The position numbers and the translations under genes were made by a program. This document shows positions 12,501 to 63,072 of a stretch of 64,000 nucleotides of DNA, one piece after another. Every line of letters begins with the position of its first letter. The stretch's first letter is position 1. The DNA is from Haliotis asinina (taxonomy: Eukaryota; Mollusca; Gastropoda; Lepetellida; Haliotidae): contig NC_090281.1 of assembly GCF_037392515.1 (NCBI RefSeq), forward strand, positions 48,708,645 through 48,772,644. The letters are read 5' to 3'. The notes beneath the pieces were generated by a model that did not search any database, was not told the origin of the DNA, and saw only the letters and a program-made list of their open reading frames with translations.

Positions 12501-15500
12501 CCCAGTTGCACAGATCGATGTTATTACTGGATTATCTGGTCCAGACTTGATTATTTACAGACTGACGCCAAATAGCTGGAATATTGCTGAGTGCAGCATA
12601 AAACCAAACTCATTTACTCCTTTTAGATTTTCCAAACTTGCAGTTTTGACATTGCTGCAATAATGAAGGTAATTATTCACATATATATTTTAAGCAGCTG
12701 ATACAAGCAGGGTGTAGTCTGTAAATAAGACGTAACTGTTATCAGCTGACCTGAAGTGAGCAACTCTTAGGTACTTGATTTAGGTTATGACAAGCAAGTA
12801 CTACATTTTTTACTACCTGTCACCACTTAGGACACTGTTCTTTGACTATGATATACTAGGGGATAACTCTATATAACCATCAGTATACATCCCCAATGCA
12901 TCAAACAGTGTCAGTACAGCTATCCCAATTCTAATTCAACTCATTTTACCCTGTTTTTTCATGAAAGAATTTCATTTTTAAACAGGTCAAAGTTCCTCTA
13001 GGTCAAAGGTTAAGCATATCATTCCTTGAACTTATGCCATCGCAAACACTTTTACTTTGTACACACTGACTAAATATCACAATGATGAAAAAGTCATAGT
13101 GTTATATCTAAAATGGACGGAAATATCATGAAACCGCCCTCCAGTTATCAGAAATGAGTGGGCTGCTGCAAGTGACAATGGACCGCTGATTCCTTTAACA
13201 ATGGACCATCATCAGTTCTGTTGTCAAATGACGTCACAGCAGGTTACGTCATGCACCATAACAGTGTACAAAACATTTCCAAATTTTGCAAGCCTGTCGA
13301 GATAGATACAACTGAATGTTAATAGCCCACAGAATTATTCACTAGTCCAAAAGTTGAAAGTAGACACGAGTTTCATCATTAAGCTCCTAATATGATGAAT
13401 GTTTTCATCAGACGATAATCTTGCAGGATTTAAAAGTGTGTTATAAGTTAACAAGTCAGAGAGAGTGATATATTTACAAAATAACCACATGAAAATTCAC
13501 TAGCTAGTCAGGCCAGTGACTTTGGAGATTTACAGACCGGACCAGATTATTACTAACCACAGTGTTTTGCACACTGTACCATGATCATGACATAAATCTT
13601 GTTAGCTTTCTACCACTATTATTTCTACCGCTGAACACTTTTCCAGAGTTTTTGATATATTAACCTTTCAGTGAATGTGTGTATGGTGAGCGCGTGGGGT
13701 GTATAGCAGTTGTATGGTTGTGAACAGGAATTTGGTGATTTTTCAGGGATAACCCAGAAAGATGTGATCGCAGCAAGTACCCGCTATCTGGAGACATTTG
13801 CAGAGATTCCAGAGGAGATAACTCCCCAATGTTCAAACGACACTGTACATCTGGTGGAGGGGATAATAGACAGAGACAGATGGGCACTCCAGTGTAAGTG
13901 GACGACGAGCTGCTCTCTGATTGGTCAAAATATAACATGAGTATTACATGTATTTTTATTTTGTGGTGCGATATATCATGTTGGTGCGAGCCTATTGAGG
14001 GTGAAGGACAAACATGGTGGATTCAATCACTCGATACCGCTAATTTCCCAATAAAGTCGTGTATTGCAGGTGAAAGAATAACCTATTTCATTCCAGAGGT
14101 TGTAGAACGAAAGCGGAATATCTAGCGATTATGGTAATGTTGTGTTTATCGCCGATCAAGTGTTTTAAAGTGAAATACATCATATTTCTTCCCCAAGAGG
14201 CAATGGTTTTCGTATGCAGCTTAATGGCGTACAAATAAAAAAGTTGTCTTTTGCCGAGTTCCAAGCAAAGTTACTTGGTACATAGTGCACAGATTTTGAT
14301 GATTTTGGATTCATTCGAAAGGGAATTTATCAGGCTTTATTTCAGTAGGGATTGTGGCTCAATGTTCCTCAGTGTCCCACCCAGAATTCACCTATAATCG
14401 AGAGTGGGGTGTTTGACAGCTTTGTGCGTGTTACATCCCTTTCCTTCGTTATATGTGTATGGATATCAGTGTAGGTTTGTTTGACCCAGGACGTATTGTT
14501 TTCAGCAATACAAGCCCCTGTGCTTTTGTGTTTATAAAAATGCTGTCCTAGTTTTGACCTCAGAGTTTTGTGACCACTTATAATAGTGGTAGAAAGCTAA
14601 TTTGTATTTTCCGAGTTTTATTCCAAATCTAGATCATTACATGTGTGATAAAACTTGTCAAATGAGAAGGTGGTATATGACACCTGAGGATACTTTGTGA
14701 GTCTTCATCTACCTGACCAGTGAAGATGTGAGGTTAGAATTGGTCTTCAGCAACCCATTCTTCTTGAAAGACATAGCTTGCTGACTTTGTTGACACACGT
14801 CGCATCCTAATCGCGTAGATCAGTGCTGACACTGTTGATTGCTGGATTGCATCGTCCAAACTCAATTATTTACAACCCTTCTCCTCCATAAACAACAAAG
14901 CAACCAAGCTCCATCAACCTGTTTTGTTCTTTGAAGTTCTGGACTCATTTGGCAAGCCTGGCAGTAATCTACTGCAGTACCAGCTACACTGGTTGGGATC
15001 ATATGATGAGTGTAACAGCATCAAGGTGATACCAGACAATTCCACAGGGATGAGAGAGCCATTCCAGAGTCAGTACTGCTTGGCATCCCGTGCTTTGACA
15101 CCACAGGTGAGTTGTGCATACCATCATGTGACACCACTGGTGAGTTGTGCATATTTGTGACAACACAGGTGAGATGTGCATTCCATCCTGCAACAACAGA
15201 GGTAAGATGTGTGCATGCTATCCAGCTACAACACAGGTAAGATGTGCATACCATTCTTTGACAACACAGGAGAGATGTACATGCCATCCAGCAACAACAC
15301 AGGTAAGATGTGCATACCATTCTTTGACAACACAGGAGAGATGTACATGCCATACTGTGACACCTGAGGTGCATTAGTGCTTTCCATATTTGACATGACA
15401 GATGAGTCCTGCATACCATACTATACCACCACAGGTGAGATGTGTGTACCTTACTGTGACAGCACACATGAGATGTGCGTACCATCCTTTGACAGCACAG

Positions 15501-18500
15501 GTGAGATGCGTGTACCTTACTGTGACAGCACACATGAGATATGCATACCATCCTTTGACAGCACAGGTGAGTTGTGTATATCATCCTGTGGCAACACGGG
15601 TGATGGGGATACCATTCTGTGAGACCACAGGTGAGCATACCATCTTGTGGCATTACAAGTGAGATGATTAGTTCATAAACACCCTGTGTTAGGAATGGTA
15701 TAGGAAACAATCCTCTCTGTGAAAGAAGTATACACGAACAGTTGCTTTATTTCTATCACTCCAAGATTAAGAGAAATGTAATCACTGCATTCCTTGCTAT
15801 ACAGATGGTGGTGGAACTTGGAACGTGTTTCCCAGACTCCTGCAGTGATATGGATGTCGCGATTATTCTCAATGGAGGTTGGTTGCAGTTACGTCATTAT
15901 TATTTTTGATGCTTTTATATATTGTTAATATATATATATATTTGTTTCTTGCGATAGCAACAGGCAAGAAATCATTTGAAACTTTTTGTATTAAGAACAT
16001 GTGCAAGAACTATTTTGGTATATGTTTATATATTAGTTTGTCATACCGACCCTGCTGCAGATATATCCAAGAAAGCCCATGCATGTCAATAAAATGTGGC
16101 AAGTCTAGATTTCCAGAGCTTTTGAAGAAAGGCTCCTTTTCATTATGTTTTATTTTTTTATATTTTTTTATAAACATACTGACCGGCTATGACACTGATT
16201 TTGATGTGGGATATAGTGACAAAAAACAGAGGTTTAGATGCAAAATCATTTCCAGTTTAAGACATAGGTAATTAGCAATGATTGTGGTTTTGAAAACAAT
16301 TGCATATCAGTGTGAGTGATACAGATGAGGTCAAACAAGTTCACCCCTTTCAACACTGTCAGCATCTTGTCATCCTCCATTCACCCTGACACAGATATGA
16401 TGACGATGGGGCAGTGCTCTAGGAATGTTCCCTATTCTTGCTGCCACACCAGTGTAAGATCTGAGATAGTGGCTGACGGTGGCTGACATCGATAAACACA
16501 TCTCACCAGTTCATCCCACAAATGTCCAAAAGGGATTAGATCTGGTGAATAAGCTGACAGTTCATCACATTATGTCCAGCTTGCTGCATGAATGCTTGTG
16601 TCACCCTGACGGTATGAGGACAGGTGTTGTCATGTTGGAATGGTACATTGTTAGTAGACGTTGACTGTTAAGTCTGGCCTGTCGCAGGTGTTGAATGGCT
16701 GTTGAAAGTGGATCCTTCTTCCAATCATTGGCTACCAATCATTGCTACTGCCTCTCTGAAGCAATCTCGAAAGTGCGCCAATCACATCTGTTGATCTTGT
16801 CTGGCTGTCATAAGAGGAAGCCGTCCTGATAAAGGGTGCTCAGTAACACTCTTTGTCATCTATTGATGACTAACAAGATGGCTAATGTTTGACATTAAGG
16901 CACCTAGCAACAACATTTTGTGAAATACCAGCTTCAAGGAGTTCCAGAGCATCTGCACGTTGCTATACATTCAGTCATCTCATGTTTAAGACAGGCTGCT
17001 GAGCTCTCAATACACATGCATTATACGGAAAAAACTCACAAAGTTACATGGATTTTCATTGTCAGGGTTGCCTTTCTATGTAATGAGAAAAATGCATTTT
17101 CACAACTGTTTCTGTTTCCGGAAGCATGAAGTGGATTTGAACTCAAGCAACTGTTCCCAGTCAAGTCATGAACATTCATTTCAAATAATCAATTTATCAT
17201 AAGTACTTCTCACTTATGTTTCACAAAATGATCTGAAACAAACCCTTTCATTGTGGATCAGTCAGTATGGAACAGACATGTTCTGTCTTAGAACACATGT
17301 TCTAAGCCTGCTAAGTAAGATTGAACATCAGCAACAGCATTAGTTTGTCAAGGGAAGATTTATCCTGAGTAAACATTTTTTATTTGCAAAGTTGTTATCA
17401 CTTTTGTTTAATAAATGTTTCAGTCCTTAAGGAAATAAACCCCAACTTGACCGTAAGCTCAGTGAGCTGCAAGGAGAGGGATTTGCCCATTGACTCTGCT
17501 GCTTCTGTGGTCATGTAAGTATGTTATTATAACCATGTTAACAGATTATAGATGCAAAATGATCTTTATCTGTATTATTGATGCAAAATGATCTTTATCT
17601 GTATTATTGATGCAAAATGATCTTTATCTGTATTATTGATGCAAAATGATCTTTATCTGTAATTGGTTTTTTCTCTTTGTTTTCCAGCGTTGTGTTGGCT
17701 ATTTTTGGCCTCCTCTTGTTGACCGGGACAGCGTTTGACATAGTCTACATCCAGATGCCCAAGTGGAAAACTGAGGAACTGAAGAACCCTGTGTCCAGTA
17801 ACAGTAAATACAGCACTGATGTACTGGGACAATCTGGCAGCAGTCTGTCTTCAGGGGAACATACCCCACTGCTTACTGAACACATCCTCAGGCAGGGAGA
17901 TGACCTGTACTCTCCAGGTGGGTCTTATGTGATTGGTTGGTGACTGATGATTCGATTTTGTGATTGGTTGGTGATGGATGTTGTATTTGATTGGTTGGTG
18001 ACAGATGATGAAATTGATTGGTTTGTGATTAGTGGTGGATGTTTTGTCATTGGTTGGTGATTGATGATAGTGTTTTTTTATGGTTGGGTAATAATGGATG
18101 ATATATTTGATTGGTTAATGTAGCAGGTGTTGGTGGCAAGATGGTTCAGGTATTTTGGGTGTACATGCACCAGTGTGATATTGTGTTGCAGGTGTTCATG
18201 GCAAGATGATAAAGGCATTCTGGGTGTACACCAGTGTGATATTGTGTTTCAGGTGTTGGCGCCAAGGTGATTCAGGTGTTCTTGGTGTTCACAAGTGTGA
18301 TATTGTGTTGCAGGTGTTTGTGGCAAGATGATTCTTGCATTCTCAGTGTACACTAATGGGAGCAAGCTGCTCAGTACCAAGCAGTCATCAGACAGTCTGC
18401 GGGCAGTGCATGGGATCCGTTTCATCAGCATGTCATGGGTTATACTCGGACACACCTACTTCTTCGGGCTTACAACATTTGGTATGTTGAGTTTGCTTGT

Positions 18501-21500
18501 TTTATGTCTCATTCATCAAAGTCTCAAAAGTTCAACTAGCAAGATCAAAATTGTTATTTCTGTTAGTATTTGTATTAAGGCAACAAATACTCTATTCTGG
18601 TACTTAACCCTTATACATCGTGAGGCCAGTGGCCTTCAGTGAGTGAGTGAGTGAATGAGTTGAGTTTTACACCACACTCAGCAATATTCCAGCTGTATGG
18701 CAGCTGTCTGTAAATAATTGAGTCTGGACCAAACAATCCAGTGATCAACAACAGGAGCATCAATCTATGCATTTGGAAATGGATGACATGTGTCAACCAA
18801 GTCACCAAGTCACCTCTTACGACAAGCATAGTTGCCTTTCATGGCAAAGCATGGGTTGCTGAAGGCCTTTTCTAACCCAGACCTTCACGGGTCCCTTCAA
18901 TCAGTGAATGGGCAAGTGAGTTTAGTTTTATTATTATATATTACTTAGCAGTATTCCAGCAATATCATGGCAGAGACCACACTGTACCTATACAGGGAAT
19001 GAAACCTGGCTCTTCAGCATGATGAACAAATATTTTAACTGCAAGGTTGCCTCAACATCCCTTCCTTCTTTGAAGCAAGTCATGTCTGTTGTGCAGTATT
19101 CAGATAAAGCTTTCCTTCGACTGAAGAAAAGAGTATCCCATTTTGGGTTTAGAACTGACAGATGATGAGACTGAGGTGAATTTGATAAACACTTTGTTTT
19201 GTTTTATTCCAGCAAATATATCAGAATTACCAAACCTGGTGACTCGGTGGACATTCGATGCCATTGATAACGCTTCTGTCTCTGTGGACACGTTTTTCCT
19301 TCTCAGGTATGTTATTCAGTCGAACTTTGTTCACAGTGCCCAGTTTGTGTTCCGACATTGGGACATCATTGGGACAACATCATCACTTATGTTAGGCCAA
19401 TGGTGGAAGCTATCTGGGAGGTTACCATGCTGAAAGAACCAATCATGAACTTTATGCATGAGCTTAAAATGGTTGTCAATGCAGTTTGTATTTAGTAGTG
19501 TTGTTCATTTATGGGGAATGATTATCTCCCTTGGATATTTTTATTTCATGTAATAAGACCTCCTGAGCTTCATGAAATATTTAGTATAGCTTTTCTGACT
19601 GAAAGTGTGAATGCGATATTCAAAGATTTTCACAGTCATTTCTGCCCCAAACAGACCAAATTGCTTATGCATTTTTTCAAAAGACAAAACAGTGGTTCTG
19701 TATACTGTGATGTTGGATTATAAAGTATTTCTCCCCTAGAAAGATTAAAGTGAACTTAATTCTCATGAAAAACAGTGTAGATGACTGTGTTGTCCATGAA
19801 AATGTGGTCATGTGTTTCAGTGGACTTCTGGTGTCATATCTGGCACTGAAGGAGCTGAAGAAAGGTGAAGGTCGTATCAACTGGTTCATGTTCTACTTCC
19901 ATAGATACTGGAGGTGAGGTTGACATGTTTGGTCTAACAGCTTGTCATTTGAAGTGATGGAGGACATTTTTTGAGGAAGAAATATAAAGTTGTATTCTCT
20001 CATATATGCCACAAGAAAATCTATACTTTATACTGAAAACGAATTATGTGCAGAAATTGTGTGCGAGAGAGACATCAACCAGTTTTGTTCTTGTTCTTCT
20101 AGGTTTATGTTTAGACCTACATGTTGTTCATCATGGTATACATCCACTGTTTCAGGTTGACTCCGCCCTACATGTTGTTCATCATGGTATGCATCCACTG
20201 TTTCAGGTTGACTCCGCACAACATGTTGTTCATCATGGTATACATCCACTGTTTCAGGTTGACTCCGCCCTACATGTTGTTCATCATGGTATGCATCCAC
20301 TGTTTCAGGTTGACTCCGCACAACATGTTGTTCATCATGGTATACATCCACTGTTTCAGGTTGACTCTGCCCTACATGTTGTTCATCATGGTATACATCC
20401 ACTGTTTCAGATTGACTCCGCACAACATGTTGTTCATCATGGTATACATCCATTGTTTCAGGTTGACTCCGCCCTACATGTTGTTCATCATGGTATACAT
20501 CCACTGTTTCAGATTGACTCCGCACAACATGTTGTTCATCATAGTATACATCCACTGTTTCAGATTGACTCCGCACAACATGCTGTTCATCATGGTATAC
20601 ATCCACTGTTTCAGGTTGACTACGCACAACATGTTGTTCATCATGGTATGCATCCACTGTTTCAGATTGACTCCTCACAACATGCTGTTCATTATGGTAT
20701 ATGTCCACTGTTTCAGGTTGACTCTACCCAACATGCTGTTCATCATGGTATACATATGTCCACTGTTTCAGGTACCTCCGCTTACATGTTGTTCATCATG
20801 GTATATGTCCTCTGTTTCAGGTTGTCTCCGCCTACATGTTGTTCATCATGGTATACATCCACTGTTTCAGTTTGACTCCGCCCTACATGCTGTTCATCAT
20901 GGTATATGTCCCACTGTTTCAGATTGACTCCGCCCAACATGCTGTTCATCATGGTATACATCCACTGTTTCAGGTTGACTCCGCCCTACATGCTTTTCAT
21001 CATGGTAGATGTCCCACTGTTTCAGGTTGACTCCGCCCAACATGTTGTTCATCATGGTATACATCCACTATTTCAGGTTAACTCCGACCAACATGCTGTT
21101 CATCATGGTATATGTCCACTGTTTCAGGTTGACTCTACCCAACATGCTGTTCATCATGGGATACATCCACTGTTTCAGGTTGACTCCACACAACATGTTG
21201 TTCATCATGGTATGCATCCACTGTTTCAGATTGACTCCGCACAACATGCTGTTCATCATGGTATACATCCACTGTTTCAGGTTGACTCCGCCCTACATGC
21301 TGTTCATCATGGTATATGTCCCACTGTTTCAGATTGACTCCGCCCAACATGCTGTTCATCATGGTATACATCCACTGTTTCAGGTTGACTCCGCCCTACA
21401 TGCTTTTCATCATAGTAGATGTCCCACTGTTTCAGGTTGACTCCGCCCAACATGTTGTTCATCATGGTATACATCCACTATTTCAGGTTAACTCCGACCA

Positions 21501-24500
21501 ACATGCTGTTCATTATGGTATATGTCCACTGTTTCAGGTTGACTCTACCCAACATGCTGTTCATCATGGTATACATATGTCCACTGTTTCAGGTACCTCC
21601 GCTTACATGTTGTTCATCATGGTATATGTTCTCTGTTTCAGGTTGACTCCGCCTACATGTTGTTCATCATGGTATATGTCCTCTGTTTCAGGTTGACTCT
21701 ACCCAACATGCTGTTCATCATGGTATACATATGTCCACTGTTTCAGGTTGACTCCGCCCTACATACTGTTCATCATGGTAGATGTCCACTGTTTCAGGTT
21801 GACTCTGCCCTACATGCTTTTCATCATGGTATATGTCCCACTGTTTCAAATTGACTCCACACAACATGCTGTTCATCATGGTATACATCCACTATTTCAG
21901 GTTGACTCCGACCAACATGCTTTTCATCATGATATATGTCCACTGTTTCAGGTACCTCCGCTTACATGTTGTTCATCATGGTTTATGTCCTCTGTTTCAG
22001 GTTGACTCCGCCTACATGTTGTTCATCATGGTATATGTCCACTGTTTCAGGTTGACTCTGCCCTACATGCTGTTCATCTAGGTATATGTCCTCTGTTTCA
22101 GGTTAACTCCGACCAACATGCTGTTCATTATGGTATATGTCCACTGTTTCAGGTTGACTCTACCCAACATGCTGTTCATCATGGTATACATATGTCCACT
22201 GTTTCAGGTTGACTCTACCCAACATGCTGTTCATCATGGTATACATATGTCCACTGTTTCAGGTTGACTCCACCTTACATGCTATTCATCATGGTATACA
22301 TATGTCCACTGTTTCAGGTTGACTCTGCCCTACATGCTGTTCATCATGGTAGATGTCCACTGTTTCAGGTTGTCTCCACCTTACATTCTGTTCATCATGG
22401 TAGATGTCCACTGTTTCAGGTTGACTCTGCCCTACATGCTGTTGATCATGGTATGTGTCCACTGTTTCAGGTTGACTCTGCCATACATGTTGTTGATCAT
22501 GGTATGTGTCCACTGTTTCAGGTTGACTCCGCCTACATGTTGTTCATCATGGTATATGTCCTCTGTTTCAGGTTGACTCTACCCAACATGCTGTTCATCA
22601 TGGTATACATATGTCCACTGTTTCAGGTTGACTCCGCCCTACATACTGTTCATCATGGTAGATGTCCACTGTTTCAGGTTGACTCTGCCCTACATGCTTT
22701 TCATCATGGTATATGTCCCACTGTTTCAAATTGACTCCACACAACATGCTGTTCATCATGGTATACATCCACTATTTCAGGTTGACTCCGACCAACATGC
22801 TTTTCATCATGATATATGTCCACTGTTTCAGGTACCTCCGCTTACATGTTGTTCATCATGGTTTATGTCCTCTGTTTCAGGTTGACTCCGCCTACATGTT
22901 GTTCATCATGGTATATGTCCACTGTTTCAGGTTGACTCTGCCCTACATGCTGTTCATCATGGTATATGTCCTCTGTTTCAGGTTGACTCCGCCTACATGT
23001 TGTTCATCATGGTATGCATCCACTGTTTCAGGTTGACTCTACCCAACATGCTGTTCATCATGGTATACATATGTCCACTGTTTCAGGTTGACTCTACCCA
23101 ACATGCTGTTCATCATGGTATACATATGTCCACTGTTTCAGGTTGACTCCACCTTACATGCTATTCATCATGGTATACATATGTCCACTGTTTCAGGTTG
23201 ACTCTGCCCTACATGCTGTTCATCATGGTAGATGTCCACTGTTTCAGGTTGTCTCCACCTTACATTCTGTTCATCATGGTAGATGTCCACTGTTTCAGGT
23301 TGACTCTGCCCTACATGCTGTTGATCATGGTATGTGTCCACTGTTTCAGGTTGACTCTGCCATACATGTTGTTGATCATGGTATGTGTCCACTGTTTCAG
23401 GTTGACTCCACCTTACATGTTGTTCATCATGGTATATGTCCCACTCTTCAAGTATTGGGGAAGTGGTCCATTTTTCCCCCAGACAGGCAACGACCCATCT
23501 TGTAAGACCAACTTCTGGGTGAACATGTTGTACCTGCAGAACATTGTCCGAGACGATAAGCAGGTAACTCTCCTGAATTATTGGAAAAGCGTATTAACTC
23601 AGCTCAATAGCATTTGATGAGGAGTATCTAAAACATCAAGCTTTTGACAGCGTTTCAGAATTTTTTAAGATGAAACTCCTAATCTGCTCAGACATGAATT
23701 GCTGGGTTTTTGGTTTAATGCTGCATTCAGCTATATTCTTGCTATATGGTGGTGGTCTTTAAATAATTGAGTCTGGACCAGTGATCAACATCAGCAGCGA
23801 TATACATGATGGGGAAGTGTTGACATGTCTCAACCTAGTCAGTGAGCCTGACCACCAGATCCAGTTAGTCGCCTTTTACGGCAAGCATGGATCTTCATGG
23901 GTAGAATTTGTCATTTGAAACAATTGTGACCAGCTCTCCTCCCATCTTTTGTCTGTACATCTGTCTGTCCGTTAAACTCTTTTTCCAAACCAGTTGTAGT
24001 ATGAACTTGTCAAGCACTATAACAGGACCCTGATTGATTGTTTGTGGAAAATGTTTAATTGTCATAATCTATTTTCAGTGCATGGGATGGGCTTGGTACC
24101 TTGCAAACGACATGCAGTTCTATGTTCTCAGTCCTCTTATATTTGTGCCTCTCTATTTGTGAGTACATGTTTTGTCTACTGAGCTATGTATGTCTATCAA
24201 GGCCATTTCAGTTACATATTGACTTTTATTAACACATGTGGACTTTGGACTAGCTGTTAAGAACACACATGCTTGTCCTGACTGCTCATATTCCTTGATA
24301 TTGACACTAATGTCCCATACCTAGGTATCCCTTCATCAGGTATCTTGATACAATATTGATATCATTAAGGTGTCATTAAATACCCACACACTATAGCTTG
24401 TTCAGCTTGACCTGACCTACTCTGCATATGTATGACCCGGGAGGTCAAATGGCACAAATGGCAGGTTGTGTAAACTTTATCAAATAGAGGAGCAGAGAAT

Positions 24501-27500
24501 GTTATTAATGTTGTGCTCGGTTGAAGCCTGCAGACTACAATTTGTTACGGAACTTTTGGGCGATGAAGTATTATTATTATCAATGAGAATTTGTAGTTTA
24601 AGTTAAAACACAAGTAATTGTGAAGAATTCTGGCACTGATCTCAGGGAATTCCAACTGCAGAATTTTTTCTGTCTGATCATAACTTTTAGGTGTATAGGT
24701 TCTGTGTCAGTTAAAACCCTAATGTTGCAGTTCTCCTGTGTTTGGTGCCATTGCTGCCGGAGTGTTCCTTCTGGCGACACTCATCACTACCGGTGTGATC
24801 ACAAGCTACTACTCCATCCCTGCTGGCGTCAGTGAGTTTTTGACTCAGGCCCCAGGGTAAGTAGGAAATAATCAGACTCTGGGTATCACAAACCAGCTAG
24901 CCCTTGGGTGTGAATTTGAGGAGAAAATCTTTGGAAAACAAGTAGAATACATCATGTGAATATACTATTTTTAGTATCCCAAGCTTGTCGTAATAGGCGA
25001 CTAACAGGATGATGTGTGAGTCATAGTTGATGCTCATGGTGTCACTCACTGGAGTGTCTGGTCCAGGCTCAGTTATTTACAGACTAGCACCATATACCTG
25101 GAATATTGCTGAGTGTGGCGTAAAACTAAACTCACTTGCACTTTCTGAGTGTTGTATAATATACATTTTCCATTTGATATTATAGTAATGTTATATTTAT
25201 TTAAATTTACCAAGACCTCAACAGTTATTACAAGTAAATGTATGTATTGTCTGGCCTTATAGCAACAAAGAGAATAATACAATTACAAACATAACTGGTT
25301 CTGTTTTCAAGTACATAAAACTTATCAGACCAGTCTGGTTTTGCACAGATTGTCACCCACTTTTTCAGTACAGGTATTGAAAAACATAGTAAGATGTAAC
25401 TACTGGACAGATTCACCTTTAAGATGCACACAGCATGACTTAAAACAACATGAACTCTCGTAGTTTATCATGGAAGTGTATAAGTAATGTAATGTTGTAA
25501 AAAGGTATGTTTATATTGGAACCAATTTTGTATCAGGTGAATTATTTGAAACATTCTGTTCCTGTGCACTGTGATCACAAAGAAGTTGACTTTCCATTTT
25601 TGCAGGAGTGAGTACTATATGTCAAAGTACTATTTTAAACCATGGTGTCGGATGGGGCCCTATATCATTGGTCTGCTCGCTGGTTACATCTTGTACAGAA
25701 CCAAGTGCAAGATCAGGATGAACAAGGTGAGAATCTTCATCTAACTGTGAAATAGTGTAAATCCTGAAATGAATGAGGCTCAAGTTTATTGCGAGTGTGA
25801 GGGTCTAGTCTAAAATGCATCACAAATTAGTGCAAACTCAGGAAATGGATCCTGAGTGAACTATTAAATACTTAAGTATTGAAAATTGGGAAGGTCCTTT
25901 ACTCGTTCTTGTGAAATACCAAACTATTTAAATGGCATCCTTGCCCTCCTCACACTTGAGTAGATTCGTCAAGATGCTGAATGTCATGTTTCAGTTCCTG
26001 TGCCTTCTTGGATGGGCGTCAGCAGCAGCGATATGTCTGGCGGTGCTATATGGCCTTGATGGCGATTCACATGGACATAAACTGAGCCATTCCGTGGCAG
26101 CTCTGTACAACACGGTTGCCCGCACAGCCTGGGCTGTGGGTGTTGCCTGGGTGATCATCGCCTGTGCCACAGGAAATGGAGGTGAGAAGACAGGACCGAC
26201 TATTCATCTACCTTAAATTGAATTTAAGTTCAGTAGTCTTGAAACAAAACATTATATGATCTAGTTGTTGTTTTATGCGAAATACCACAGGGATGTCATA
26301 TGTTCACACAGAGAGATGTCAGATATATAGAGTGAATGAGTTTAGTTTTACGCTGGTTTTAGCAATATTCCAGCAATATCACAACAAGGAACACTAGAAA
26401 TAGGTTCCACACATTGTACCCACGTGGGGAATGGAATCCAGGTGTTTGGTGTGATGAACAAACACTTAAATCACTCAGCTATCTCACTCCCAGTGCAATG
26501 ATAAACAATAATAATGTGATTGGAACATGGCTTCTTTTCCTCCAACTGAAGTGCAGGTCTTTGAATATTGGATTCAAGGGCTCAGATACATGTGATGTTT
26601 TTGAAGTGTGGATGAACCAGATTTTACCTTTGTTAGATTAGTCAGTGTTTTTAGCATTAGCTTGTATAATGTTGTGCATAAGTGTATTTGTATGTATTGA
26701 GGTGAGTGAAGGTGACTTGAGTACTGTGGAGGTGACTTGAGTACTGAATGAAACTGGTTATGTGCAGGTATTGAGGTGAGTGAAGGTGACTTGAGTACTG
26801 AATGAAACTGGTTATGTGCAGGTATTGAGGTGAGTGAAGGTGGTTTGAGTACTGAATGAAACAGTGTGTGTGCAGGTATTAAGGTGAGTGAAGGTGACAT
26901 GAGCACTGTGAAGGTGACTTGAGTACTGAATGAAACTGTTTATGTGCAGGTATTGAGGTGAGTGAAAGTGGCTTGAGTACTGAATGAAACTGTTTATGTG
27001 CAGGTATTGAGGTGAGTGAAGGTGACTTGAGTACTGAATGAAACTGTGTATGCAGGTATTGAGGTGGGTGAAGGTGACTTGAGTACTGAATGAAACTGTT
27101 TATGTGCAGGTATTGAGGTGAGTGAAGGTGACTTGAGTACTGAACGAAACTGTGTATGCAGGTATTGAGGTGAGTGAAGGTGACTTGAGTACTGTGAAGG
27201 TGACTTGAGTACTGAACGAAACTGTTTATGTGCAGGTATTGAGGTGGGTGAAGGTGACTTGAGTACTGAATGAAACTGTTTATGTGCAGGTATTGAGGTG
27301 AGTGAAGGTGGTTTGAGTACTGAATGAAACTGTATATGTGCAGGTATTGAGGTGAGTGAAGGTGACTTGAGTACTGAATGAAACTGTTTATGTGCAGGTA
27401 TTGAGGTGAGTGAAGGTGGTTTGAGTACTGAATGAAACTGTTTATGTGCAGGTATTGAGGTGAGTGAAGGTGACTTGAGTACTGAATGAAACTGTGTATG

Positions 27501-30500
27501 CAGGTATTGAGGTGGGTGAAGGTGACTTGAGTACTGAATGAAACTGTTTATGTGCAGGTATTGAGGTGAGTGAAGGTGACTTGAGTACTGAATGAAACTG
27601 TTTATGTGCAGGTATTGAGGTGAGTGAAGGTGGTTTGAGTACTGAATGAAACTGTTTATGTGCAGGTATTGAGGTGAGTGAAGGTGGTTTGAGTACTGAA
27701 TGAAACTGTTTATGTGCAGGTATTGAGGTGAGTGAAGGTGACTTGAGTACTGAATGAAACTGGTTATGTGCAGGTATTGAGGTGAGTGAAGGTGGTTTGA
27801 GTACTGAATGAAACTGTTTATGTGCAGGTATTGAGGTGAGTGAAGGTGACTTGAGTACTGAATGAAACTGTTTATGTGCAGGTATTGAGGTGAGTGAAGG
27901 TGGTTTGAGTACTGAACGAAACTGTTTATGTGCAGGTATTGAGGTGAGTGAAGGTGACTTGAGTGCTGAATGAAACTGGTTATGTGCAGGTATTGAGGTG
28001 AGTGAAGGTGACTTGAGTACTGAATGAAACTGTTTATGTGCAGGTATTGAGGTGAGTGAAGGTGACTTGAGTACTGAATGAAACTGTATATGTGCAGGTA
28101 TTGAGGTGAGTGAAGGTGACTTGAGTACTGAATGAAACTGTTTATGTGCAGGTATTGAGGTGAGTGAAGGTGACTTGAGTACTGAATGAAACTGTTTATG
28201 TGCAGGTATTGAGGTGAGTGAAGGTGGTTTGAGTACTGAACGAAACTGGTTATGTGCAGGTATTGAGGTGAGTGAAGGTGACTTGAGTACTGAATGAAAC
28301 TGTTTATGTGCAGGTATTGAGGTGAGTGAAGGTGACTTGAGTACTGAATGAAACTGTTTATGTGCAGGTATTGAGGTGAGTGAAGGTGACTTGAGTACTG
28401 AATGAAACTGTTTATGTGCAGGTATTGAGGTGAGTGAAGGTGACTTGAGTACTGAATGAAACTGTTTATGTGCAGGTATTGAGGTGAGTGAAGGTGACTT
28501 GAGTACTGAACGAAACTGTTTATGTGCAGGTATTGAGGTGAGTGAAGGTGGTTTGAGTACTGAACGAAACTGTTTATGTGCAGGTATTGAGGTGAGTGAA
28601 GGTGACTTGAGTACTGAATGAAACTGGTTATGTGCAGGTATTGAGGTGAGTGAAGGTGACTTGAGTACTGAACGAAACTGTTTATGTGCAGGTATTGAGG
28701 TGAGTGAAGGTGACTTGAGTACTGAATGAAACTGTTTATGTGCAGGTATTGAGGTGAGTGAAGGTGGTTTGAGTACTGAATGAAACTGTTTATGTGCAGG
28801 TATTGAGGTGAGTGAAGGTGACTTGAGTACTGAATGAAACTGTTTATGTGCAGGTATTGAGGTGAGTGAAGGTGACTTGAGTACTGAACGAAACTGTTTA
28901 TGTGCAGGTATTGAGGTGAGTGAAGGTGGTTTGAGTACTGAACGAAACTGTTTATGTGCAGGTATTGAGGTGAGTGAAGGTGACTTGAGTACTGAATGAA
29001 ACTGGTTATGTGCAGGTATTGAGGTGAGTGAAGGTGGTTTGAGTACTGAACGAAACTGTTTATGTGCAGGTATTGAGGTGGGTGAAGGTGACTTGAGTAC
29101 TGAATGAAACTGTTTATGTGCAGGTATTGAGGTGAGTGAAGGTGACTTGAGTACTGAATGAAACTGTATATGTGCAGGTATTGAGGTGAGTGAAGGTGAC
29201 TTGAGTACTGAATGAAACTGTTTATGTGCAGGTATTGAGGTGAGTGAAGGTGACTTGAGTACTGAATGAAACTGTTTATGTGCAGGTATTGAGGTGAGTG
29301 AAGGTGACTTGAGTACTGAATGAAACTGTTTATGTGCAGGTATTGAGGTGAGTGAAGGTGACTTGAGTACTGAATGAAACTGTTTATGTGCAGGTATTGA
29401 GGTGAGTGAAGGTGACTTGAGTACTGAATGAAACTGTTTATGTGCAGGTATTGAGGTGAGTGAAGGTGACTTGAGTACTGAACGAAACTGTTTATGTGCA
29501 GGTATTGAGGTGAGTGAAGGTGGTTTGAGTACTGAACGAAACTGTTTATGTGCAGGTATTGAGGTGAGTGAAGGTGACTTGAGTACTGAATGAAACTGGT
29601 TATGTGCAGGTATTGAGGTGAGTGAAGGTGGTTTGAGTACTGAACGAAACTGTTTATGTGCAGGTATTGAGGTGGGTGAAGGTGACTTGAGTACTGAATG
29701 AAACTGTTTATGTGCAGGTATTGAGGTGAGTGAAGGTGGTTTGAGTACTGAATGAAACTGTATATGTGCAGGTATTGAGGTGAGTGAAGGTGACTTGAGT
29801 ACTGAATGAAACTGTTTATGTGCAGGTATTGAGGTGAGTGAAGGTGGTTTGAGTACTGAATGAAACTGTATATGTGCAGGTATTGAGGTGAGTGAAGGTG
29901 ACTTGAGTACTGAATGAAACTGGTTATGTGCAGGTATTGAGGTGAGTGAAGGTGACTTGAGTACTGAATGAAACTGTGTATGCAGGTATTGAGGTGGGTG
30001 AAGGTGACTTGAGTACTGAATGAAACTGTTTATGTGCAGGTATTGAGGTGGGTGAAGGTGGTTTGAGTACTGAACGAAACTGTTTATGTGCAGGTATTGA
30101 GGTGAGTGAAGGTGACTTGAGTGCTGAATGAAACTGGTTATGTGCAGGTATTGAGGTGAGTGAAGGTGACTTGAGTACTGAATGAAACTGTTTATGTGCA
30201 GGTATTGAGGTGAGTGAAGGTGACTTGAGTACTGAATGAAACTGTATATGTGCAGGTATTGAGGTGAGTGAAGGTGACTTGAGTACTGAATGAAACTGTT
30301 TATGTGCAGGTATTGAGGTGAGTGAAGGTGACTTGAGTACTGAATGAAACTGTTTATGTGCAGGTATTGAGGTGAGTGAAGGTGGTTTGAGTACTGAACG
30401 AAACTGGTTATGTGCAGGTATTGAGGTGAGTGAAGGTGACTTGAGTACTGAATGAAACTGTTTATGTGCAGGTATTGAGGTGAGTGAAGGTGACTTGAGT

Positions 30501-33500
30501 ACTGAATGAAACTGTTTATGTGCAGGTATTGAAGTGAGTGAAGGTGACTTGAGTACTGAATGAAACTGTTTATGTGCAGGTATTGAGGTGAGTGAAGGTG
30601 ACTTGAGTACTGAATGAAACTGTTTATGTGCAGGTATTGAGGTGAGTGAAGGTGACTTGAGTACTGAACGAAACTGTTTATGTGCAGGTATTGAGGTGAG
30701 TGAAGGTGGTTTGAGTACTGAACGAAACTGTTTATGTGCAGGTATTGAGGTGAGTGAAGGTGACTTGAGTACTGAATGAAACTGGTTATGTGCAGGTATT
30801 GAGGTGAGTGAAGGTGACTTGAGTACTGAACGAAACTGTTTATGTGCAGGTATTGAGGTGGGTGAAGGTGACTTGAGTACTGAATGAAACTGTTTATGTG
30901 CAGGTATTGAGGTGAGTGAAGGTGGTTTGAGTACTGAATGAAACTGTTTATGTGCAGGTATTGAGGTGAGTGAAGGTGACTTGAGTACTGAATGAAACTG
31001 TTTATGTGCAGGTATTGAGGTGAGTGAAGGTGGTTTGAGTACTGAACGAAACTGTTTATGTGCAGTTATTGAGGTGAGTGAAGGTGACTTGAGTGCTGAA
31101 TGAAACTGGTTATGTGCAGGTATTGAGGTGAGTGAAGGTGACTTGAGTACTGAATGAAACTGTTTATGTGCAGGTATTGAGGTGAGTGAAGGTGACTTGA
31201 GTACTGAATGAAACTGTATATGTGCAGGTATTGAGGTGAGTGAAGGTGACTTGAGTACTGAATGAAACTGTTTATGTGCAGGTATTGAGGTGAGTGAAGG
31301 TGACTTGAGTACTGAATGAAACTGTTTATGTGCAGGTATTGAGGTGAGTGAAGGTGGTTTGAGTACTGAACGAAACTGGTTATGTGCAGGTATTGAGGTG
31401 AGTGAAGGTGACTTGAGTACTGAATGAAACTGTTTATGTGCAGGTATTGAGGTGAGTGAAGGTGACTTGAGTACTGAACGAAACTGTTTATGTGCAGGTA
31501 TTGAGGTGAGTGAAGGTGACTTGAGTACTGAATGAAACTGTTTATGTGCAGGTATTGAGGTGAGTGAAGGTGACTTGAGTACTGAATGAAACTGTTTATG
31601 TGCAGGTATTGAGGTGAGTGAAGGTGACTTGAGTACTGAACGAAACTGTTTATGTGCAGGTATTGAGGTGAGTGAAGGTGGTTTGAGTACTGAACGAAAC
31701 TGTTTATGTGCAGGTATTGAGGTGAGTGAAGGTGACTTGAGTACTGAATGAAACTGTATATGTGCAGGTATTGAGGTGAGTGAAGGTGACTTGAGTACTG
31801 AATGAAACTGTTTATGTGCAGGTATTGAGGTGAGTGAAGGTGACTTGAGTACTGAATGAAACTGTTTATGTGCAGGTATTGAGGTGAGTGAAGGTGGTTT
31901 GAGTACTGAACGAAACTGGTTATGTGCAGGTATTGAGGTGAGTGAAGGTGACTTGAGTACTGAATGAAACTGTTTATGTGCAGGTATTGAGGTGAGTGAA
32001 GGTGACTTGAGTACTGAATGAAACTGTTTATGTGCAGGTATTGAGGTGAGTGAAGGTGACTTGAGTACTGAATGAAACTGTTTATGTGCAGGTATTGAGG
32101 TGAGTGAAGGTGACTTGAGTACTGAATGAAACTGTTTATGTGCAGGTATTGAGGTGAGTGAAGGTGACTTGAGTACTGAACGAAACTGTTTATGTGCAGG
32201 TATTGAGGTGAGTGAAGGTGGTTTGAGTACTGAACGAAACTGTTTATGTGCAGGTATTGAGGTGAGTGAAGGTGACTTGAGTACTGAATGAAGCTGGTTA
32301 TGTGCAGGTATTGAGGTGAGTGAAGGTGACTTGAGTACTGAATGAAACTGTTTATGTGCAGGTATTGAGGTGAGTGAAGGTGACTTGAGTACTGAACGAA
32401 ACTGTTTATGTGCAGGTATTGAGGTGAGTGAAGGTGGTTTGAGTACTGAACGAAACTGTTTATGTGCAGGTATTGAGGTGAGTGAAGGTGACTTGAGTAC
32501 TGAACGAAACTGTTTATGTGCAGGTATTGAGGTGAGTGAAGGTGGTTTGAGTACTGAACGAAACTGTTTATGTGCAGGTATTGAGGTGAGTGAAGGTGAC
32601 TTGAGTACTGAATGAAACTGGTTATGTGCAGGTATTGAGGTGAGTGAAGGTGACTTGAGTACTGAATGAAACTGTTTATGTGCAGGTATTGAGGTGAGTG
32701 AAGGTGGTTTGAGTACTGAATGAAACTGTTTATGTGCAGGTATTGAGGTGAGTGAAGGTGACTTGAGTACTGAATGAAACTGTGTATGCAGGTATTGAGG
32801 TGGGTGAAGGTGGCTTGAGCACTGAATGAAACTGTTTATGTGCAGGTATTGAGGTGAGTGAAGGTGACTTGAGTACTGAATGAAACTGTGTATGCAGGTA
32901 TTGAGGTGAGTGAAGGTGGTTTGAGTACCGAATGAAACTGGTTATGTGCAGGTATTGAGGTGAGTGAAGGTGGTTTGAGTACTGAACGAAACTGGTTATG
33001 TGCAGGTATTGAGGTGAGTGAAGGTGGTTTGAGTACTGAATGAAACTGTTTATGTGCAGGTATTGAGGTGAGTGAAGGTGACTTGAGTACTGAATGAAAC
33101 TGTGTATGCAGGTATTGAGGTGAGTGAAGGTGACTTGAGTACTGAATGAAACTGTTTATGTGCAGGTATTGAGGTGAGTGAAGGTGACTTGAGTACTGAA
33201 TGAAACTGTGTATGCAGGTATTGAGGTGAGTGAAGGTGGCTTGAGCACTGTGAAGGTGACTTGAGTACTGAATGAAACTGTCTGTGTGCAGGCTTTGTGA
33301 ACACCCTGTTGTCCTGGGAAGCCTTCATTCCTCTGAGCCGCCTCACATACTGCACCTACCTGGTTCATCCTGTCATCATGGAGCTGTACTACTTCTCACA
33401 GCGGCAGCTATTCTACGTCTCAGACCTTAACATGGTGAGTGTAGCGTGTTTGATGTACAAAACTGGGTCTCAGTGGAAATATTCAGAAATGTGCATAGTG

Positions 33501-33964: not shown

Positions 33965-33990
33965 ATGAACTCACAGACTCCAACATCCGC

Positions 33991-34455
33991 ACGAAGATAG
34001 GTCGCTGTCAAGATGACTAATGATCAAATAACACGAAGATAGGTCGCTGTCAAGATGACTAATGATCAAATAACACGAAGATAGGTCGCTGTCAAGATGA
34101 CTAATGATCAAATAGCACGAAGATAGGTCGCTGTCAAGATGACTAATGATCAAATAGCACGAAGATAGGTTGCTGTCAAGATGACTAATGATCAAATAAC
34201 ACGAAGATAGGTCGCTGTCAAGATGACTAATGATCAAATAACACGAAGATAGGTCGCTGTCAAGATGACTAATGATCAAATAGCACGAAGATAGGTCGCT
34301 GTCAAGATGACTAATGATCAAATAACACGAAGATAGGTCGCTGTCAAGATGACTAATGATCAAATAGCACGAAGATAGGTCGCTGTCAAGATGACTAATG
34401 ATCAAATAACACGAAGATAGGTCGCTGTCAAGATGACTAATGATCAAATAATAAT
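33991..34455 (+). repeat. 42 bp tandem array in the 3' UTR, about 11 copies
   Basis: Nearly identical units of ACGAAGATAGGTCGCTGTCA, AGATGACTAATGATCAAATA and (A/G)C begin 26 nt after the NRF-6-like stop. Because 42 is a multiple of three, the opposite strand stays open as a repetitive frame, which I do not regard as a gene. Confidence 0.93.

Positions 34456-55820: not shown

Positions 55821-63072
<7,252 letters not shown>

Follow-up and report, generated by a model that had tools for sequence, protein, structure and literature searches.

The window analysed here is a 64,000-nucleotide stretch of the Haliotis asinina genome (NCBI RefSeq assembly GCF_037392515.1, contig NC_090281.1, positions 48,708,645 to 48,772,644), in which an unusual tandem array fills an intron of a gene encoding a "nose resistant to fluoxetine protein 6-like" (NRF6-like) product. 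The gene lies on the + strand, as do all of its features and arrays described below (positions are those of the window). Our model comprises 16 exons (9363-33964) with GT-AG signals at all junctions and specifies a 734-residue protein, which is the annotated H. asinina protein of that name (P0001, with one extra N-terminal methionine). NRF and Acyl_transf_3 domains were found in it by Pfam, and the predicted product is an NRF6-like acyltransferase of this species.

Exon 9 (19821-19913; donor GGAG/GTGAGG, the slash marking the splice boundary), whose in-frame model is identical to P0001, and exon 10 (23401-23563) are separated by intron 9 (19914-23400). The acceptor at 23401 marks the start of exon 10 in the annotated protein as well as in our gene model. 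Nearly the whole intron is occupied by the array, for which Tandem Repeats Finder (TRF) gave a period of 51 bp and 64.6 copies at 20116-23441 (87% matches, score 4390). The units were delimited by cutting the array at the acceptor motif, which yielded 64 ends resembling acceptors and, between them, 63 complete units (20156-23400) of 49-55 bp, namely 37 of 51 bp, ten of 55, six of 50, six of 52 and four of 49. Since the longest unit has 55 bp, no unit devoid of the motif was missed by this pattern. A 64-copy array is beyond chance, and the claim of the earlier note on this DNA, that more than 60 tandem copies of about 51 bp carry an acceptor and the start of exon 10, was borne out. All comparisons of array structure reported here come from one H. 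asinina assembly.

There are 38 distinct sequences among the 63 units, and the acceptor is among their best preserved parts. The units end in CAG (62 of the 64 ends) or CAA (two); no unit has lost TTTCA, and 61 of the 63 retain the final G. Because A replaces G before TTTCA in four units and CAA closes two others, the motif TGTTTCAG stands exact at the close of 57 of the 63. Exon 10 itself follows unit 63 directly as the terminal copy, and its first 45 nucleotides are identical to a 52-bp unit at 42 positions (46 of 52 for nucleotides 1-52); the unit is therefore largely a copy of the exon start followed by an acceptor tract, (C)CCACTGTTTCAG. Thus the tandem unit holds exon-edge sequence together with a splice boundary, and the authentic boundary ends the array, in agreement with the annotated protein; the earlier note had indeed described the authentic exon as simply the last copy. 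At the opposite side lies a partial unit (20116-20155), just before which an acceptor-like sequence, TTCTTGTTCTTCTAG, ends at 20102. Its score in the matrix described below is 5.4 (genuine sites, 3.5-11.4), and it may represent the older acceptor.

The array also has a higher-order structure. Two blocks of 879 bp, at 21642-22521 and 22522-23400, are identical at 870 of 880 alignment positions, the second ending exactly at exon 10. All ten differences are confined to one patch of approximately 60 nucleotides, away from the four last units of the array, which recur 879 bp upstream with zero mismatches. An older pair of blocks (20871-21280 and 21281-21690) is identical at 386 of 414 positions (93%). 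The near-identity of the 879-bp blocks suggests a recent change in the array.

The strength of the surplus splice sites was assessed with a home-made weight matrix (no published program was used) based on the splice sites of the NRF6-like gene and of a kinesin gene in the same window, comprising 25 acceptors and 25 donors; for the authentic and upstream acceptors of the array, the matrix drew on the remaining acceptors of both genes. As background we took 665 AG dinucleotides, drawn from NRF6-like introns outside the arrays only. The authentic acceptor at 23401 scores 8.7, a value matched or exceeded by 49 of the 63 upstream acceptors and reached by 0.75% of the background AGs. The branch-site consensus is yTnAy. 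A match to it was found between -45 and -16 at all 64 array acceptors vs 319 of 643 background AGs. When the 38 distinct units were compared, only one of 51 windows varied less than the acceptor segment (0.024; mean 0.089), and TTCATCATGGTA, which is compatible with a branch site, proved about as invariant. The unit borders read AG/GT in 54 of 64 cases. A reading of these borders as dual-specific splice sites was considered and rejected because the donor side is too weak: its median score is 0.8 and its highest 4.3, against 3.4-13.0 for genuine donors.

Far fewer of these acceptors are compatible with the protein. Of the 64 tested, a full open frame was obtained from only five: the authentic site and the four at 23197, 23248, 23299 and 23350, which head four consecutive 51-bp units (23197-23400) open into exon 10 and would insert 68, 51, 34 and 17 residues, respectively. 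The array as a whole does not maintain the reading frame: unit length is a multiple of three in 37 of the 63 units, and since 26 are not, the other 59 upstream acceptors lack an open frame. Any such insertion would fall between R422 and L423, within the motif HRxWRLTPxY. All eight specified residues of this motif are invariant in the 120 listed homologues (of 803 found), and none of these 120 has a residue inserted between the R and the L. The AlphaFold2 structure prediction (42 sequences; average predicted local distance difference test score 79.9, about 86-90 around the insertion point) places this point inside one helix (residues 412-441). The earlier note had named the same four acceptors, their 51-bp spacing and a conserved insertion site, all of which our frame test and the homologues support. 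Its picture of dozens of competing sites needs correction as regards coding potential: of the upstream acceptors, only the four keep the frame open.

Sharing of exon-edge sequence with the adjoining intron is not confined to exon 10. A second gene of the window, on the - strand, encodes a kinesin-II 95 kDa subunit-like protein and is represented here by 11 exons (377 amino acids; 93% identical, without gaps, to H. cracherodii P0121). For each of 50 exon edges of the two genes, a 25-mer was scored against its own adjoining intron, with 107 further 25-mers serving as controls. A score of at least 26 was reached at four edges (NRF6-like exons 3, 7 and 10, and kinesin exon 9) and by none of the controls, the highest of which scored 22; the start of exon 10 against intron 9 scored 40. 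Exon-edge copies are thus present at three edges besides that of exon 10, and both types of boundary are affected: donors at NRF6-like exon 3 and kinesin exon 9, acceptors at NRF6-like exons 7 and 10. When 40-mers across the junctions were used, eight of 50 junctions scored at least 30 and the others at most 22, a comparison made with no random-position control.

The array at exon 3 (33-bp period by TRF, 15096-15635; junction 40-mer score 56, exon-edge score 28) starts inside the exon and repeats the donor CACAG/GTGAG. Ten CAG sites were listed in it: the authentic donor scores 13.3, seven downstream CAG/GT sites score 8.9-13.3, and two sites read CAG/GA (4.3). At exon 7, a 61-bp array detected by TRF (18119-18353; 40-mer 63, exon-edge 32) ends inside the exon and repeats the acceptor together with the exon start. 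A 27-bp array (17928-18028; 40-mer 32) begins 11 nucleotides past the exon 6 donor, and no exon part was seen in it. In the kinesin gene (- strand throughout), 52- and 29-bp arrays (56525-57639; exon-edge 26, 40-mer 30) extend from the donor at 57639; the terminal sequence of the exon before it, GCAGCACTTCCAG, recurs in the 52-bp unit. A degenerate array past the donor at 59175 (58587-59175; 40-mer 33) matches on the intron side, with only AG of the exon, and a further one found by TRF (55892-56041; 40-mer 36), likewise matched on the intron side, runs up to the last-exon acceptor at 55891. The minisatellite at 61291-61643, in a kinesin intron before the exon 3 acceptor (61104), was not counted as a junction array (40-mer score 21).

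A larger array than that of intron 9 lies in intron 14 of the NRF6-like gene. This 54-bp array (26694-33291 by TRF; junction 40-mer 42) reaches the exon 15 acceptor and makes up most of the intron; no exon part was seen in it. It contains 118 units with the sequence CAG/GTATTGAG/GTGAGT (a few variants allowed). The acceptors of these units score 8.3 in 82 of 118 cases (authentic acceptor, 7.6). The donors, located 8 nucleotides past the acceptor, score 12.3 in 108 of the 118 units and so surpass the 8.7 of the authentic donor of exon 14. In its sequence the arrangement looks like a recursive-splicing layout, and this array may be the stranger of the two.

Several other features accompany these arrays. 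Beside the NRF6-like gene, a 42-bp array (33990-34451; 11 copies, 98% matches) starts 25 nucleotides after the stop codon. In the annotated H. rubra homologue (P0003), 23 residues of the segment specified by exon 5 (17424-17514) are duplicated in tandem, and the C-terminal end of this protein reads into sequence corresponding to intron 13 of H. asinina. Introns of the kinesin gene contain a minisatellite (62317-62917) and a (CGCA)72 tract (58237-58525, 100% matches). Introns and intergenic DNA alike carry many dispersed short repeats of a single type (18650-18880, 24990-25140 and others), which resemble mollusc repeats and probably represent a SINE-like (short interspersed nuclear element-like) family. 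An excess of CAGG on the sense strand of 13 intronic arrays was dropped as unconvincing (eight sense-rich, two antisense-rich, three with none).

We consider the intron 9 array to be a boundary-spanning minisatellite that has grown by slippage or unequal exchange, with the surplus copies left in the intron, and assign to this reading a probability of roughly 0.8. The course of events that we infer would have begun with the tandem duplication of a segment of 51-52 bp that consisted almost entirely of nucleotides 1-45 of exon 10 and ended in the acceptor tract. The first misalignment possibly involved CCCACT of exon 10 and CCACT before the acceptor, whose spacing equals the period. Growth to 63 extra copies would have followed by multi-unit unequal exchange or slippage, the 879-bp duplication representing one recent step. 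Under exon definition, the copy nearest the exon's own donor would be chosen. The acceptor closest to the donor of exon 10 would accordingly be preferred, and only the copy joined to the remainder of that exon would normally be spliced in; the others would stay in intron 9, probably inert though resembling intact 3' splice sites. This reading is supported by the position of exon 10 as the terminal copy, the block duplications, the annotated use of 23401, the lack of an insertion there in the 120 listed homologues and the sharing of exon-edge sequence at four of the 50 edges. The earlier note had offered length isoforms, a decoy array and neutral slippage side by side; the block copy, the placing of the insertion point inside the HRxWRLTPxY motif and a predicted helix, and the arrays at donors favour slippage or unequal exchange, and the other two options lose ground.

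Several points weigh against this interpretation. The sequence offers no reason why the extra acceptors should be ignored, because so many of them score as high as the authentic one (49 of 63) and a branch-like motif precedes every one of the 64. Constraint could be the reason why the acceptor block varies so little, although this is suggestive only, and the annotated protein may be based on homology rather than on RNA. Moreover, the 13 intronic arrays are not enriched at junctions when exon overlap is permitted. When they were slid at random, with exon overlap of up to 45 bp either allowed or not, four contacts were observed vs 4.6 expected with overlap (P 0.76); the null without overlap (0.2 expected at distance 0) is unable to yield overlaps and so is hardly informative. 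Six arrays lie within 13 bp of a junction (5.8 expected, P 0.59 with overlap; 2.7, P 0.02 without) and nine within 45 bp (P 0.47 and 0.20, respectively). As random placement gives as many contacts, the case rests on shared exon sequence and not on position.

The open frame next to exon 10 might be taken as a sign that the four nearest acceptors are usefully employed, adding 17, 34, 51 or 68 residues where a membrane helix begins, and the site scores, equal to that of the authentic acceptor, agree with such length isoforms. The insertion would, however, split both the predicted helix and a motif without exception among the listed homologues, and in the protein database a single sequence makes up the H. 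asinina cluster, with no longer form present. Four 51-bp units in a row are unremarkable where 37 of 63 units have this length. Furthermore, the open stretch belongs to the recently copied block, and because this block was duplicated upstream without a mismatch in these units, the open frame gives no sign of selection; it does not appear to be a long-kept property. We therefore regard useful length isoforms as very improbable. A working decoy array, in which the surplus acceptors (together with the 118 site pairs of intron 14) would slow or regulate splicing, for example by holding factors or promoting intron retention, could account for the high site scores and for the little variable acceptor and branch-like blocks. 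That similar arrays are found at donors and in a second gene nearby suggests mutation at work and not a device peculiar to this gene, which leaves this possibility very improbable; on the sequence, a functional role of the surplus acceptors is unlikely.

With respect to origin only, the array might alternatively be purely exonic. Nucleotides 1-52 of exon 10 would have been duplicated in tandem behind an original acceptor ending at 20102, and the ends of the copies, mutating from CTTCAAG to GTTTCAG, would have become acceptors, so that the intron grew out of a former exon. The unit tail does match exon nucleotides 40-52 at 10 of 13 positions (3-8 for the 13-mers before the other 25 acceptors), and an extra acceptor-like site stands at the left edge, before the first partial unit. 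Six of the ten matches are nevertheless accounted for by CCCACT, which a duplication spanning the boundary would supply for free if it arose at a short direct repeat; in addition, the match is poor over the initial nucleotides of the left-edge unit, and the left acceptor scores only 5.4. We find this origin doubtful, though worth keeping in mind. An inflated copy number due to misassembly, chiefly of the 879-bp block, would fit the identity of the two blocks outside one patch. The 38 distinct units, the older 93% block pair and the several other arrays of the window make such an artefact highly improbable, and at most the copy number would be in doubt.

The boundary-spanning minisatellite that we favour for intron 9 might be extended to a general proposal, namely that abalone exon edges keep generating tandem arrays of intact acceptors and donors, tolerated through strong exon definition and a potential source of new introns, exons or length isoforms, the low variability of the acceptor and branch blocks then reflecting selection. 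In this broad form the idea is unlikely. If exon edges were such recurrent sources, the 63 surplus acceptors and 118 acceptor-donor pairs of the NRF6-like gene would constitute a natural test of splice-site choice. The gene is in any case a potential test of how a 3' splice site is chosen: as the one nearest the exon's donor, as the first after the branch site, or at random. Arrays of this kind in a mollusc also bear on intron growth and on the possible origin of new introns.

Among known systems, the closest parallel is provided by the "mirages" of amphioxus, described as minisatellite-like tandem duplications of 3' or 5' intron-exon boundaries in which AG/GT is often kept (PMC3087553, PMC3902484). 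They are reported in the globin genes BflGb6 and BflGb9 and in Adh3, TnC and PGBD5, with the authentic boundary beside the repeats. As far as those descriptions go, the intron 9 array fits their structural features (a unit containing the exon edge, a terminal authentic boundary, both boundary types). It differs in its host, a mollusc, in its 63 copies vs three and six in two BflGb6 haplotypes, and in the occurrence of more than one array in each of two genes of a single window. Tandem AG/GT at the unit borders (54 of 64 here) also recalls the dual-specific splice-site array described for polyubiquitin UBC (PMC10809524), but that array is coding, with in-frame units, whereas the H. asinina array has weak donors and many units that are not multiples of three. 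In a potato gene, duplication of a segment reaching over an intron's 3' boundary into the exon start is described as having founded an intron whose signals were inherited from the parent (PMC4974935). That was one duplication giving a new intron; H. asinina has dozens of copies inside a single intron, with no sign of a new one. Within abalones, a long, length-variable 27-bp minisatellite, depicted with 62 repeats, resides in an intron of the TSSK1-like gene of Haliotis discus hannai, but the passages devoted to it mention no splice junction as part of the repeat (PMC6905558). Our search for mollusc or abalone cases in open-licence papers found no boundary-spanning minisatellite. The earlier note had called the locus very unusual; it is striking, yet the amphioxus mirages have been described and intron 14 of the same gene holds an array of 118 site pairs. 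Our results suggest that the boundary-spanning minisatellites described in amphioxus also occur at several exon edges of two mollusc genes, and the intron 9 array is most likely a large further example of this known, though little-studied, kind.

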